Assembly: GCA_944324685.1 (NCBI GenBank)
Contig: CALUXG010000033.1
Location: 1-43,405 of the forward strand
DNA length: 43,405 nucleotides
From: an uncultured Elusimicrobiales bacterium
Lineage (GTDB): Bacteria; Elusimicrobiota; Elusimicrobia; Elusimicrobiales; Elusimicrobiaceae
Direction of reading: 5' to 3'
The notes under the pieces are model-generated. The model was not told the DNA's origin. It saw only the letters and a list, made by a program, of their open reading frames with translations, and searched no databases. Position numbers and translations under genes: made by a program. This document shows, one piece after another, positions 185 through 37,684 of this stretch; position 1 is the stretch's first letter; the number at the start of each line of letters is the position of its first letter.

Positions 185-670
185 TTACCAGTTGTATCCC
201 TCTGCCCCTATTGAATTAGACACATTCGGTTCCTGCAAGCCGCTCAGCGAACGGCAAAGCCCGTGGCCCGAAGGCTCATTGACCCAGCAATTCATCTTTG
301 TACTGACAAAATATTTTTCCAACGATATTTCCGGCACTTTTTTGCTGGAACAATACAAAGAAACCGGCGTTGCGCCGTTGCCCATATGAATATAACATGA
401 AAAATCCGCATAGTACAGAGTTCCATGATTGCTGCCGAATGTTCCGCCGGCAGGCATGGAAATGTCCAAATTGTCAAAAGTGTCGGAATATGCGCCGTTG
501 GCCATATAATAACGCTTTTGCGCATCACAAATGCTGCGTATTAAAGGCATTAAGACAGCCGCACGGCTTCGTTTTACCGCTCTTTCATACTGCGGCAAAG
601 CCACAGCGGCCAATATACCAATGATTAAAACAACAACTAATAATTCAATCAGCGTAAATCCTTTTTTCAT
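185..670 (-). CDS. Type IV pilin-like protein (PilA/PilE class)
   Basis: 161 residues. The N-terminus MKKG|FTLIELL is a classic class III signal: a short basic leader, Gly before the prepilin peptidase cut, and Glu at mature position 5. A hydrophobic helix follows to about residue 25, then an LPQYERAV segment. The C-terminus carries a Cys pair with ten residues between (C-x10-CRSL), presumably the D-region disulfide and shared with the other pilins here. The protein should be held in the inner membrane, cleaved and methylated by PilD, and assembled into a pilus or pseudopilus. No assembly gene (pilB, pilC, pilD, pilQ) is in the window, so it is an orphan subunit. It has its own terminator and a conserved T-tract promoter (see 671-785). 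Pilin versus type II secretion pseudopilin cannot be settled from sequence. Confidence 0.9.
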   Translation of the reverse strand: MKKGFTLIELLVVVLIIGILAAVALPQYERAVKRSRAAVLMPLIRSICDAQKRYYMANGAYSDTFDNLDISMPAGGTFGSNHGTLYYADFSCYIHMGNGATPVSLYCSSKKVPEISLEKYFVSTKMNCWVNEPSGHGLCRSLSGLQEPNVSNSIGAEGYNW

Positions 671-785
671 TTTTTGTTCCTATAACGGCATTTAATTGTT
701 CAAAAACACGCCTTAGCGGCATTTTGTTTTTGAGCATGTATAGGGTATCAAAAAAAAAAAACGAGTCAAGGCTGGGGCGGTTTTC
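671..785 (-). promoter_or_regulatory. Conserved T-tract pilin promoter and leader, copy 1
   Basis: The core (735-785) is almost identical to 29387-29437 and 37634-37684. Read on the minus strand it has TTGACT (764-769), CG, twelve T (750-761), then GATACCC and TATACA (737-742). TTGACT to TATACA is 21 nt, too long for a normal spacer; the weaker TACCCT lies at 16 nt. The leader of about 60 nt contains TCAAAAACA and TGTTTTTGA, able to form a 9-bp stem, and an AGGAA ribosome site before the ATG. Confidence 0.7.
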
Positions 786-13945: not shown

Positions 13946-14467
13946 TCAAGCTGATAAACAATCCAATCTCCGCTTGACGTTTGTTTTCCGCCCATGGACT
14001 GGCAAACCTGCTGGGCTGTTTTTAGAAGAATGCCGCGCCACACACTCCGTTACGCCCTCCAATCGTTTGTTTACGGAACAGGGAAAAGGAATTGGGTGAT
14101 AAGTAAAATATAAATGCCATCCCACCGTAACAGTAATCGTTGCATTGCCCCAATCACACCTCTCCATATAACTGAGAGTAAACTTAGAACTCTGAGGCAA
14201 TTCTATATCCAGCAGCGACAAATCCTCCGTATAGTGGCCGTTAGTCATATAATAGCGCGTCTGAGCGTCCGCCGTATTTCTAAGCAAAACCAAAGCTTGT
14301 ACAGCCTTGGATTTAAGCACGGCCGCTTCATATTTGGGCCATGCCACGGCCGCTATTATACCTATAATCAGCACCACCGCCAAAAGTTCCATCAGCGTAA
14401 AGCCGCCAAATCCGCCTTTGACGGAATTTTTACAAAGAACAGCGTTTTTTTGATAAATTTTGATCAT
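13946..14467 (-). CDS. Type IV pilin-like protein with an apparent C-terminal frameshift
   Basis: 173 residues from the ATG at 14467. Near residue 24 is G|FTLMELLAVVLIIGIIAAVAWPKYE, a prepilin peptidase site with Glu at +5. The leader of about 23 residues is unusually long. After TECVARHSSK the frame diverges from the family, while the frame one base away (13843-14043) reads KTAQQVCQSMGG, exactly the C-x(10-12)-C-x-S end seen in the other pilins. One extra A in the run of five A near 14022 would explain this. The corrected protein would run on to about 13843. It is either a frameshifted gene, a sequencing error, or phase-variable. There is no Shine-Dalgarno, and an 18-bp inverted repeat surrounds the ATG. 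A TTG at 14473 is an alternative start. Confidence 0.75.
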   Translation of the reverse strand: MIKIYQKNAVLCKNSVKGGFGGFTLMELLAVVLIIGIIAAVAWPKYEAAVLKSKAVQALVLLRNTADAQTRYYMTNGHYTEDLSLLDIELPQSSKFTLSYMERCDWGNATITVTVGWHLYFTYHPIPFPCSVNKRLEGVTECVARHSSKNSPAGLPVHGRKTNVKRRLDCLSA

Positions 14468-14488
14468 AGACAAAATTTATCAAAAAAA
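14445..14488. repeat. 18-bp inverted repeat enclosing a pilin start codon
   Basis: TTTTTTTGATAAATTTTG (14445-14462) and its perfect complement (14471-14488) are separated by 8 nt. The ATG of the minus-strand pilin (14465-14467) lies in that 8-nt loop. In mRNA the start codon would sit in the loop of an AT-rich hairpin. Confidence 0.85.
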
Positions 14489-14498
14489 AACAATGCAA
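14482..14498 (-). promoter_or_regulatory. T-tract upstream element of the frameshifted pilin
   Basis: On the minus strand TTGCAT (14493-14498), TG, and nine T (14482-14490) are followed by GATAAA. The order (TTG-type -35, T tract, GATA) resembles the three conserved pilin promoters, though the spacing is shorter and no good -10 is at 17 nt. Confidence 0.4.
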
Positions 14499-28746: not shown

Positions 28747-28776
28747 AAAACTCCCCGCCGTTTAGCGGGGAGTTTT
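28747..28776. terminator. Bidirectional terminator
   Basis: A perfect 12-bp stem AAAACTCCCCGC/GCGGGGAGTTTT (28747-28758 with 28765-28776) with a 6-nt loop, between the SpoIID-like gene and a convergent pilin gene. Confidence 0.9.
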
Positions 28777-29323
28777 ATTTTACAAGCTGAAATGTACAAC
28801 CATATTGAATACTGCTATCTTCTCTCCAATAACAGGTTTTATCACCGGTAATACCCTGACACAACTCATGCCCCCTTTCTCCTCTTCCCACACAAGACAT
28901 CTGGTAATCATAACGACCTTGATAATCAGGCGCTATTTGGGCTGTAATTTGATACAGATCATTCCATCCGCCCGCGGACAAAGATAAAATCTTAGATTGT
29001 AAATGTGTTTGCACATGGGTAGAAATCGTATAATCCCCCATATCAAAACATTCCTGATCATAACTGGATTTTGAATGACAATTATTACCGGAAGTTACGG
29101 GAAAATCCAAATCTAAATTTGAAGGTTTTAATCCCGCGAAACTGTTTCCATTTTGCCAATAATAGATAAGCGCCGATTTACGTATAGCATCAAACACTGT
29201 AACCAGCTCCGAAACACGGGCTTTTTCCACTGTTTTTTCATACTGCGGCAAGGCAATGGCCGCCAAAATGCCAATAATCAGCACCACAACCAACAATTCA
29301 ATTAATGTAAATCCTTTTTTCAT
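28775..29323 (-). CDS. Type IV pilin-like protein
   Basis: 182 residues from the ATG at 29323. MKKG|FTLIELLVVVLIIGILAAIALPQYEKTVEKARVSEL is the canonical pilin N-terminus with Glu5. The ectodomain has more Cys than its paralogues: an internal NC...EC pair, the shared C-x10-C (SCVGRGERGHELC), and a further pair near the end (TC, GC). An in-frame ATG 12 bases upstream exists, but the spacing to the ribosome site matches the paralogues at 29323. It is a single gene with the conserved T-tract promoter and a strong terminator. The assembly machinery is not in the window. Confidence 0.9.
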   Translation of the reverse strand: MKKGFTLIELLVVVLIIGILAAIALPQYEKTVEKARVSELVTVFDAIRKSALIYYWQNGNSFAGLKPSNLDLDFPVTSGNNCHSKSSYDQECFDMGDYTISTHVQTHLQSKILSLSAGGWNDLYQITAQIAPDYQGRYDYQMSCVGRGERGHELCQGITGDKTCYWREDSSIQYGCTFQLVK

Positions 29324-29437
29324 TTTTTCTACCATAACAGCGTTTAATCATTCAAAAACACGTCTCAGCGGCGTTTATTTTTTCGTCATGTATAGGGTAT
29401 CAAAAAAAAAAAACGAGTCAAGACTGGGGCGGTTTTC
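29324..29437 (-). promoter_or_regulatory. Conserved T-tract pilin promoter and leader, copy 2
   Basis: Core 29387-29437: TTGACT reads at 29416-29421, twelve T at 29402-29413, TATACA at 29389-29394. It differs from copy 1 by one base across the 51-bp core. The leader shares the TGTTTTTGA and ATTAAACGCTGTTAT segments with copy 3. Confidence 0.7.
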
Positions 29438-33528: not shown

Positions 33529-34038
33529 CTAAAGATTGACGTCAGTCAACAGACCCATGGACTTGCAGATTTTCTTGGCGTTTTCGCTCTCGCCATAGCA
33601 GGCCAACGTGCGTTTGCTGTCCGATTTTCCGTACGGATTCCATATATAATACACGTCCCCGTCCAGACGTGCCGCCACCACACCGCCGCAATTGGTGGCG
33701 GGGATTTTGGCGTTTTGGGCGGCATTGAGACGGTAAGAAAAATATTCACTTCTTATTTCCGCCCCGTCTGAAGATATCTCGCCCGGGACTTCAATTAAAA
33801 GTTTATAAAACGCCGATGGACAGGCATTGCGCTCGGCCGCATACGTATATACGGCGTCATTGAGCGATTTAACCATATTCATGGCCTCTGTGGCGCGTGA
33901 TTTTTCTATGCTGCGCATATAATTGGGTATGGCCACCGACGCCAAAATGCCCAAAATCATTACCACCACCAACATTTCCACCAGCGTAAAACCGCCGACG
34001 CTTCCGCGCCGCAGCATACGGCATATATATTGTTTCAT
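33529..34038 (-). CDS. Type IV pilin-like protein coupled to dapL
   Basis: 169 residues from the ATG at 34038. The leader MKQYICRMLRRGSVGG ends at G|FTLVEMLVVVMILGILASVAIPNYMRSIEKSRATEAM, a variant N-terminus (VEM, IPNY) that differs from the LPQY type of the other four. The ectodomain ends C-x10-CKSMG, the shared disulfide pair. The start overlaps the dapL stop by ATGA, with AAGGAG 7 nt upstream, so it is translationally coupled to dapL. An ATG two codons earlier (34044) is too close to that ribosome site. It lacks the T-tract promoter, so it should follow dapF-dapL expression. Confidence 0.88.
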   Translation of the reverse strand: MKQYICRMLRRGSVGGFTLVEMLVVVMILGILASVAIPNYMRSIEKSRATEAMNMVKSLNDAVYTYAAERNACPSAFYKLLIEVPGEISSDGAEIRSEYFSYRLNAAQNAKIPATNCGGVVAARLDGDVYYIWNPYGKSDSKRTLACYGESENAKKICKSMGLLTDVNL

Positions 34039-35279
34039 AGACATTCTCCTTTGAATGGAAACTGCATAATGCGCTCGGCGGCTTGGCGCGTCAAATCCGG
34101 CGTATTAAAAGCCGTCAAGCGAAAAAATCCTTCCCCGCATTGGCCAAACCCGCTGCCCGGGGTACCGACGATTTGCAGCTTATCCAACATAAAATCAAAA
34201 AATTCCCATGAAGTCATGGCATTGGGCGTTTTGAGCCACACATAAGGAGAGTTTTCCCCGCCATATACGCAAAACCCCGCCCCGCGCAAAGCGCGCAAAA
34301 TAACTTGAGCATTGTTCAAATATCCGTCAATGGCTTCTCGGGTTTGTTTCTGTCCGTCGGGGCTGAACACGGCCTCGGCGCCGCGCTGCACAATATACGA
34401 TACACCGTTAAATTTGGTGCTTTGGCGGCGCAGCCACAAATCACGCACATGATGCACGGCCCCCTGAGCATCCTTGACCGTCAAATCTTTCGGCACCACG
34501 CAATACGCACAGCGCGTGCCGGTAAAACCGGCGGTTTTGGAAAATGAGCGGAACTCTACAGCGCAAGTTTTGGCGCCGGAAATTTCAAAAATACTTCGGG
34601 GCAGTTCCTTTTCTCGGATAAACGCCTCATACGCCGAATCATACAAAATAACGGCTTCATGCTCATTGGCCCAATCCACCCACCGCTGCAACGCCTGACG
34701 CGTCATGACCGCGCCGGTGGGATTGTTCGGCGAACATAAATACGCCAAATCCACCCTTTCCTGAGGAGGCAGCGGAGAAAAACCGTTCTTCTCCGTACAA
34801 GGCAAATAAACGATTTTGCTGAATTTTCCGCCGATAAAACCGCCGCTGCGGCCTGCCATGACATTGCTGTCCACATATACGGGATATACGGGATCCTGCA
34901 CCGCCACAACAGCTTGCTGCGAAAATACTTCCGCAAAGCAGGCCGTATCACTTTTGGCTCCGTCGCTGACGAAAATTTCGTCATCTTGTATGTCCACCCC
35001 GCGCGCACGGTAATCATGCTGCGCTATGGCCCGACGCAAAAACTCATATCCTTCATACGGTCCGTACCCGCGGAAAGTTTCCGCTCGGCCCATTTCGTCG
35101 CAAGCTTTTTTAAGCGCTTCCACCACGGCGGGAGCCAATGGACGGCTGACGTCGCCTATTCCCAAACTGATTACTTCCCGCTTTGGGCCGGAAGCTCGGT
35201 ATGCGGCGGCGCGGCGCACCACTTCCGCAAACAAATAACTTCCCTGCAAATTCAAATAATTTTCATTGATCCGCGTCAT
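34035..35279 (-). CDS. dapL: LL-diaminopimelate aminotransferase
   Basis: 414 residues, the family norm. DapL makes LL-diaminopimelate from tetrahydrodipicolinate and glutamate in one step, bypassing DapD/C/E. Fold-type I PLP motifs: SDGAKSDTACF near 100, CSPNNPTG near 175, and SFSKTAGFTGTRCAY near 247, whose Lys binds PLP. Continuous N-terminal INENYLNLQGSYLFAEV matches DapL. The ATG overlaps the dapF stop by 4 nt; an upstream in-frame start at 35354 would lie inside dapF. With dapF it supplies meso-diaminopimelate for cell wall and lysine. Confidence 0.92.
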   Translation of the reverse strand: MTRINENYLNLQGSYLFAEVVRRAAAYRASGPKREVISLGIGDVSRPLAPAVVEALKKACDEMGRAETFRGYGPYEGYEFLRRAIAQHDYRARGVDIQDDEIFVSDGAKSDTACFAEVFSQQAVVAVQDPVYPVYVDSNVMAGRSGGFIGGKFSKIVYLPCTEKNGFSPLPPQERVDLAYLCSPNNPTGAVMTRQALQRWVDWANEHEAVILYDSAYEAFIREKELPRSIFEISGAKTCAVEFRSFSKTAGFTGTRCAYCVVPKDLTVKDAQGAVHHVRDLWLRRQSTKFNGVSYIVQRGAEAVFSPDGQKQTREAIDGYLNNAQVILRALRGAGFCVYGGENSPYVWLKTPNAMTSWEFFDFMLDKLQIVGTPGSGFGQCGEGFFRLTAFNTPDLTRQAAERIMQFPFKGECL

Positions 35280-37113: not shown

Positions 37114-37569
37114 TTATTTCATGAGATAATACTTTGTTTGTCCGTCATAAGTATGAGAATATGTCCCATAGGTAGCGCAGACGTCATTGGCAGCTTTGTC
37201 ATCAACGGGCGCAAAACACCAGCGGTTTTTATTACCCACCAAAGAAAACTCAAAATAAGGCAAAGCCATGTCGAAATTTGCCGGCATAATTTGTATACGG
37301 ACATTGTTGTCTGTGTTCGTCCGAATAAAATACATATAATAATTCGAATTGGGAATGGTAATATCCAAGTCTTCCAAATTGGTGGTAAAAGTACCATTGG
37401 CCAAACGATATCGTTCCAAAGCCTGTTCCAGCGTTTTTCCGACCACCAAAGCTTCCGTTGCCCGGGCGCGCGCGACCGATTTTTGATATTGCGGCAAAGC
37501 GATAGCCGACAAAATACCGATAATTAACACAACCACCAATAATTCAATCAAAGTAAAACCTTTTCTCAT
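37114..37569 (-). CDS. Type IV pilin-like protein
   Basis: 151 residues. MRKG|FTLIELLVVVLIIGILSAIALPQYQKSVARARATEAL is the canonical N-terminus with Glu5. Only two Cys are in the ectodomain, in the shared position (C-x12-C, WCFAPVDDKAANDVC). It is the smallest of the five and ends TKYYLMK. It has the conserved T-tract promoter but no strong terminator was seen. It stands alone between uppS and lpxK. Confidence 0.92.
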   Translation of the reverse strand: MRKGFTLIELLVVVLIIGILSAIALPQYQKSVARARATEALVVGKTLEQALERYRLANGTFTTNLEDLDITIPNSNYYMYFIRTNTDNNVRIQIMPANFDMALPYFEFSLVGNKNRWCFAPVDDKAANDVCATYGTYSHTYDGQTKYYLMK

Positions 37570-37684
37570 TTTTTCTTCCTATAACAGCGTTTAATCGCTC
37601 AAAAACACGTCTCAGCAGCGTTTGTTTTTCCGCCATGTATAGGGTATCAAAAAAAAAAAACGAGTCAAGGCTGGGGCGGTTTTC
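37570..37684 (-). promoter_or_regulatory. Conserved T-tract pilin promoter and leader, copy 3
   Basis: Core 37634-37684: TTGACT at 37663-37668, twelve T at 37649-37660, TATACA at 37636-37641. The leader holds AAAAACA and TGTTTTT able to pair, and TATAGGAAG as ribosome site. Confidence 0.7.

Follow-up and report, generated by a model that had tools for sequence, protein, structure and literature searches.

Simple-repeat phase variation is best known from pathogens with modest numbers of loci. In Bordetella fim2 and fim3, as in Neisseria porA and opc, a homopolymer in or beside the core promoter sets its spacing and, hence, the expression of a surface protein. Neisseria also carries pilS pilin copies, which are silent and promoterless. 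The vlp genes of Mycoplasma hyorhinis, few in number, encode lipoproteins and combine a conserved 5′ part with a variable exposed part. Each member of this surface-protein family is described as having its own promoter with a homopolymeric A tract, in which insertions and deletions switch transcription (PMC10502178, citing Citti and Wise 1995). A study of the gut commensal Bifidobacterium breve describes slippage-driven ON/OFF expression of sortase-dependent pili (PMC9187656). Here, we describe promoters with a homopolymeric spacer that precede type IV pilin-like genes in a 43,405-nt stretch of DNA from an uncultured Elusimicrobiales bacterium (contig CALUXG010000033.1; hereafter the window), in the 1.40-Mb Elusimicrobiales metagenome-assembled genome from which it comes (G000), and in related genomes.

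Like vlp, this is a surface-protein family in which each gene has its own homopolymer-bearing promoter: a pure homopolymer lies between the −35 and −10 elements, its length differs among copies and orthologs at stable flanks, and the exposed parts of the products diverge. It differs from vlp in its phylum, in having dozens to more than 100 type IV pilins scattered over each genome, in its tracts (mostly T12, or T11/A11), and in that switching is here a prediction from sequence. The fim2/fim3 and porA/opc tracts are poly-C or poly-G at single genes, with fim coupled to BvgA, whereas those described here are A/T tracts in a large gene family with a 16-nt modal spacer. The B. breve system concerns another pilus type and two clusters, as opposed to dozens of promoters. 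With Neisseria pilE/pilS, the family shares multi-copy type IV pilins with a constant N-terminus and a variable ectodomain; unlike pilS, almost all copies of the major type come with a promoter of their own and a full N-terminus.

We consider it probable that slippage-prone promoter spacers tune or switch each pilin independently, with T12 as the favored length. Each pilin gene would have its own promoter of the vegetative-sigma type, with a −35/−10 spacer that is mostly pure homopolymer (usually T; A in one subfamily). The favored 16 nt would be made up of a T12 tract flanked by 2+2 bases, a T11 tract by 3+2, or an A11 tract by 4+1. Replication slippage would add or remove bases and thereby shift the spacer within ~12–19 nt; an off-length spacer would weaken or silence its own gene only, independently of the other pilins. 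Given that pilins of differing ectodomain number from dozens to probably well over 100 in a genome, every cell of a switching population would display a specific, heritable and reversible set of them.

Anatomy and extent of the pilin promoters

The three most similar promoter cores of the window lie on the minus strand at 735–785, 29387–29437 and 37634–37684. The first and third are identical (51/51), and the second differs by a single base (50/51). All have the layout TTGACT, CG, T12, GATACCCTATACA, with TACCCT beginning 16 nt and TATACA 21 nt past TTGACT, and each is followed by an open reading frame (ORF) with a prepilin N-terminal motif. The products belong to the type IV pilin superfamily, with a GFTLIEL motif and a hydrophobic helix (PF07963, 7e-8 to 1.1e-8; TIGR02532 above cut-off); gene names used here are profile matches. 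Their first 53 mature residues are 57–58% identical, as against 28–30% for the ectodomains, and the homologous block starts ~40 nt upstream of the −35 and stops in or before the codons of the N-terminal helix. A sequence-only reading of the window had already described the near-identical cores and the strong divergence of the ectodomains, and both descriptions hold. It had also read the equal tract lengths as a sign of selection or gene conversion. T12 is indeed the mode of the genome, which points to selection on spacing, but the equality is a sampling effect limited to these three copies: a fourth tract of the window is T9, and lengths span T8–T17 in the genome.

The general design, found in the genus and one sister genus, consists of TTGNNN, 2–4 nt, a pure T or A run, 1–2 nt, and TANNNT. 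Two main classes occur in G000. Class A, to which the three cores belong, reads CTTGAYTYG-Tn-GATACCCTATACATGG, and the ~75-nt leader behind it includes a ribosome-binding site. In class B, the layout is CTTGNNTYG-Tn-GATAAATTTTGYNTATGNNCAAAATTTATC, where GATAAATTTTGYNTATGNNCAAAATTTATC is a palindrome that spans the −10 and holds the start ATG within its loop; this ATG lies 6 nt past TAAATT and thus suggests a leaderless mRNA. Minor forms carry TACATT, TACACT, TATTAT or TATACT after the tract. The search for further core copies that the sequence-only reading had proposed recovered the class A 33-mer in 10 exact copies and in 14 copies at ≤3 mismatches, whereas a reversed-pattern control gave none; this recurrence is far above chance. 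The strict core is also present in genomes named Elusimicrobium or Elusimicrobiales metagenome bins.

Prepilin motif matches delineate 76 pilin-like genes in G000. Its T-runs of ≥9 number 72, and 55 of these lie ≤600 nt upstream of a pilin start on the same strand, where 1.2 would be expected (P ~5e-83). With 55 of 72 tracts each at a pilin that has its own promoter, the pilE/pilS layout of a single expression locus and promoterless silent copies was not found. Several of the remaining 17 runs are truncated by a contig end and still bear the promoter signature; the others comprise T9 runs in different settings and one T11 terminator tail (C9:4882). This tail is the sole exception among the runs of ≥10 seen, all others bearing the pilin-promoter signature, so that essentially every T-run of ≥10 serves a pilin promoter. 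Outside this setting, the genome has hardly any long T or A tracts. The tract-less pilins include a pseudopilin-like cluster on contig C18. Two PilT-family ATPases above cut-off, found on examining the pilus assembly machinery, make a retractable pilus machine plausible.

The signature TTGNNTYG-T9+ occurs in 54/66 species of the genus, the others having a different −35 suffix or poly-A. In a 295-genome sample of the phylum, a related signature is concentrated in the genus and in a sister genus from its family, other genomes giving single matches at most. Across the 66 species, the number of T-runs correlates with that of pilins (Spearman 0.84; pilin counts are first-look candidates). In one species (G004), 207 A/T runs of ≥9 accompany at least 105 pilins, and a homopolymer of ≥8 precedes 45/55 pilins in a 371-kb sample. 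Judged from these sequences, the chances appear evenly balanced that the promoters constitute a genus-wide transcriptional contingency system of Elusimicrobium-group gut bacteria, in which dozens to ~200 independently slipping homopolymer-spacer promoters per 0.9–1.8 Mb genome would each serve one pilin variant, with poly-T and poly-A built around the same 16-nt spacer. If so, few known slipped-strand repertoires would be as dense.

The spacing is conserved across this range. TANNNT stands two bases past the end of the tract in 82% of the promoters of G000 and in 80% of those of other species, and the modal 16-nt spacer accounts for 26/44 promoters in G000, 26/32 in G004 and 37/61 in other species. 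It is also the mode in G014, where 16/19 promoters have T12. The hexamer after the tract varies among genes and species (TACCCT, TAAATT, TACAAT, TACATT, TATACT) at this modal spacing, as do the surrounding bases: TTGACATCG-T11-GCTACATT and the poly-A form TTGACAAATC-A11-CGATAAT in G004, TTGACCCG-T12-CTTACAAT in G016, and TTGACTTTG-T11-GATACCAT in G030/G033. The parts of the spacer sum to 16 across these forms, as 3+11+2, 4+11+1 or 2+12+2. A 16-nt mode in unrelated base contexts argues for selection on spacing. One species (G025; L200, L206, L212, L218) combines near-consensus TTGACA with TACAAT or TACGAT, and T12–T13 gives a 19–20 nt spacing in 4/4 copies seen; this exception would reflect an off-mode state throughout the species or, alternatively, the use of another −35.

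Tract variation and competing explanations

Tract comparisons, which span one genome per species, revealed length differences at stable flanks. Leaving out L058 (−35 TTCATT, tract T11), four pairs of paralogous promoters in G000 differ in length with no flank indel: L052/L053 (T10/T11, 2 mismatches) and L042/L065 (T9/T14, 6 mismatches), each over 96 nt, L008/L025 (T12/T14, 7 mismatches) and L053/L060 (T11/T13, 9 mismatches). In the ortholog pair L015/L019, from two species and 96.5% identical over 835 nt, the tracts are T12 and T9, and this 3-T difference is the sole indel near the promoter; a second ortholog pair, L022/L024, has T12 in both. The tracts are nonetheless almost perfectly pure, with 3 interruptions in 382 sites (0.8% non-T) versus a pairwise flank divergence of 19–55%, and the three interrupted tracts have spacers of 17–18 nt. 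Such purity, unneeded for spacing alone, indicates that the homopolymer is itself under selection or is maintained by mutational processes. Considered jointly, the near-exclusive association with pilins and the length changes at stable flanks are explained most economically by a slippage-tuned switch like that of M. hyorhinis vlp. About 20% of the promoters in G000 have spacers outside 15–18 nt with their pilin ORFs intact, and these may be regarded as candidate OFF alleles.

Several points weigh against such switching. Between 60 and 85% of promoters are at the modal spacer, more uniform than the mixed lengths usual at contingency loci, and, as a substrate for slippage, T12 is of moderate length. 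The mutS gene is intact in G000 and scores above cut-off in 39/41 genus members searched; any switching would therefore proceed with mismatch repair available. Most assemblies are metagenome bins, probably from short reads, in which the homopolymer consensus may be off by a base. Finally, the E. coli matrix rates TACCCT as a weak −10 and TATACA as slightly better in class A.

The high modal fraction also keeps alive the main rival explanation, according to which the tract is a fixed structural A-tract, i.e., rigid or bent DNA or a shared-activator site in a co-regulated pilin regulon, where slippage is merely deleterious and purged by selection without functional switching. We regard this as possible but rather unlikely. 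It would account for the strong modal length (T12 or T11/A11) and the 16-nt spacer shared by all species that were sampled in depth, and a rigid tract can sit on either strand, as in G004; the conserved class A block, which reaches up to 40 nt ahead of the −35, and the class B palindrome would both be compatible with protein binding. It sits less easily with the intact ORFs behind the off-length fifth of the promoters, and the scarcity of long T/A tracts elsewhere in the genome speaks against a general promoter feature.

Recent amplification or gene conversion alone, with a homogenized promoter and N-terminal cassette whose equal tract lengths merely reflect descent, appears improbable. The homology block is confined to the promoter, leader and N-terminal codons, as this explanation would have it, and many contigs end inside the block; however, one cassette cannot readily explain why spacing and purity are kept amid bases as unrelated as those around the G004 poly-A and G016 poly-T tracts.

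The same comparisons bear on the −10 element. Because the bases and the strand of the tract vary between species while the 16-nt mode stays, TACCCT at 16 nt is the better candidate, an option that the sequence-only reading had offered as its alternative. Its other proposal, which takes TATACA as the −10 and a tract four T shorter (T8) as the ON state, is arithmetically correct and has the matrix score noted above in its favor, but it is very improbable: TATACA is confined to class A, is degenerate in four class A copies (L013, L014, L051, L054) and is missing from class B and most other species with the tract, TANNNT at the modal 16 nt is common to all classes, and zero class A copies in G000 have T8. 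Thus, the earlier idea of phase variation through homopolymer length survives in part, as a tract between −35 and −10 that varies among paralogs and orthologs fits a slippage-tuned promoter, while the T8 ON state is not supported. A generic promoter scanner listed none of these sites, because TACCCT and TAAATT fit too few consensus bases.

Further candidate explanations were rejected. An intrinsic terminator is contradicted by the lack of a GC stem before the tract in the pilin promoters, and a search of the window against Rfam for known RNA elements gave a tRNA only. Loss of mismatch repair as the source of variation conflicts with the intact mutS. A phage origin found no support, the class A and class B patterns being unmatched in viral contigs, and plasmids matched weakly, and in the pilin-coding portion alone. 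A short-read artefact is countered by G014, an assembly of two contigs that is probably long-read and has the same T11–T13 pattern.

No earlier report of pilin homopolymer-spacer promoters was found among the open-access papers searched, a set that excluded subscription literature such as the genome paper on Elusimicrobium minutum. A little-studied gut phylum appears to keep nearly all its long homopolymers for use in pilin promoters. Should switching be confirmed, each cell would carry a combinatorial pilin code that bears on adhesion, immune recognition and pilus-targeting phages, and that could be read straight from metagenomic reads. In addition, several classes and species sharing the 16-nt mode offer a natural experiment for relating promoter activity to the length of the spacer and the composition of the homopolymer.

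Features of the window, leaders and palindromes

Table 1. Homopolymer-spacer promoters, pilin-like genes and associated elements in the window.
Feature	Position	Strand	Details
Class A homopolymer-spacer promoter	737..769	−	−35 TTGACT 769-764, T12 761-750, −10 TACCCT 747-742 (putative), 16-nt spacer; TATACA 742-737
Class A 5′ leader	671..736	−	Conserved short leader ORF (MxKNxxPLRRVFExLNAVIG), frame differs from that of the pilin
Type IV pilin-like gene	185..670	−	161 aa, KGFTLIEL, behind first promoter
Class B pilin-like gene	13946..14467	−	MIKIYQK...GGFTLMEL
Palindrome GATAAATTTTGTCTATGATCAAAATTTATC	14452..14481	−	Overlaps class B −10; start ATG 14467-14465 in loop; kept in class B promoters
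Fourth T-tract pilin promoter of the window, class B	14474..14498	−	TTGCAT 14498-14493, T9 14490-14482, TAAATT 14479-14474, 13-nt spacer (off-mode)
Type IV pilin-like gene	28775..29335	−	186 aa
Class A homopolymer-spacer promoter	29389..29421	−	T12 29413-29402, 16-nt spacer
Type IV pilin-like gene	37114..37569	−	151 aa
Class A homopolymer-spacer promoter	37636..37668	−	T12 37660-37649, 16-nt spacer

The features of the window are collected in Table 1. Another prepilin-like gene, at 33529–34044, is without a T tract and matched GspG-like pseudopilin models below cut-off.

The class B palindrome over the −10 and start codon is retained in other species with different arms, e.g., GATTTAATTAGC-TTATAC-GCTAATTAAATC in L175. 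Since the palindrome is kept while its arm sequences differ, an operator or another palindrome-dependent function is suggested. In class B pilins of G000 outside the window, such as L075, L078, L080, L081 and L101, the frame from the promoter ATG to GFTLIEL crosses one to several palindromic repeats, GTCATCCTGAGRRGTYGTAACTCAGGATCTC and GGGATGCCGAGTAAAAGCGTCTCGGCATGAC, and the resulting leader peptides range from about 40 to more than 100 residues. These repeats resemble the in-frame palindromic elements known in Rickettsia, but they sit in the part that prepilin peptidase should remove. The prepilin leader of L215 (G004) bears a different repeat-like stretch, CHSKLDLESHRFLKRQQGEILKQVQDDG, and the invasion of leaders may therefore recur with other repeat families.

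Class A leaders conserve a short ORF, MAKNQTPLRRVFERLNAVIGRK, for example in the window (671–736) and in L004, L008, L010 and L012. It usually lies in a different frame and overlaps the pilin start, with in-frame fusions in L010, L012, L013 and L023; this may reflect translational coupling, or the ORF may be what is left of a longer leader.
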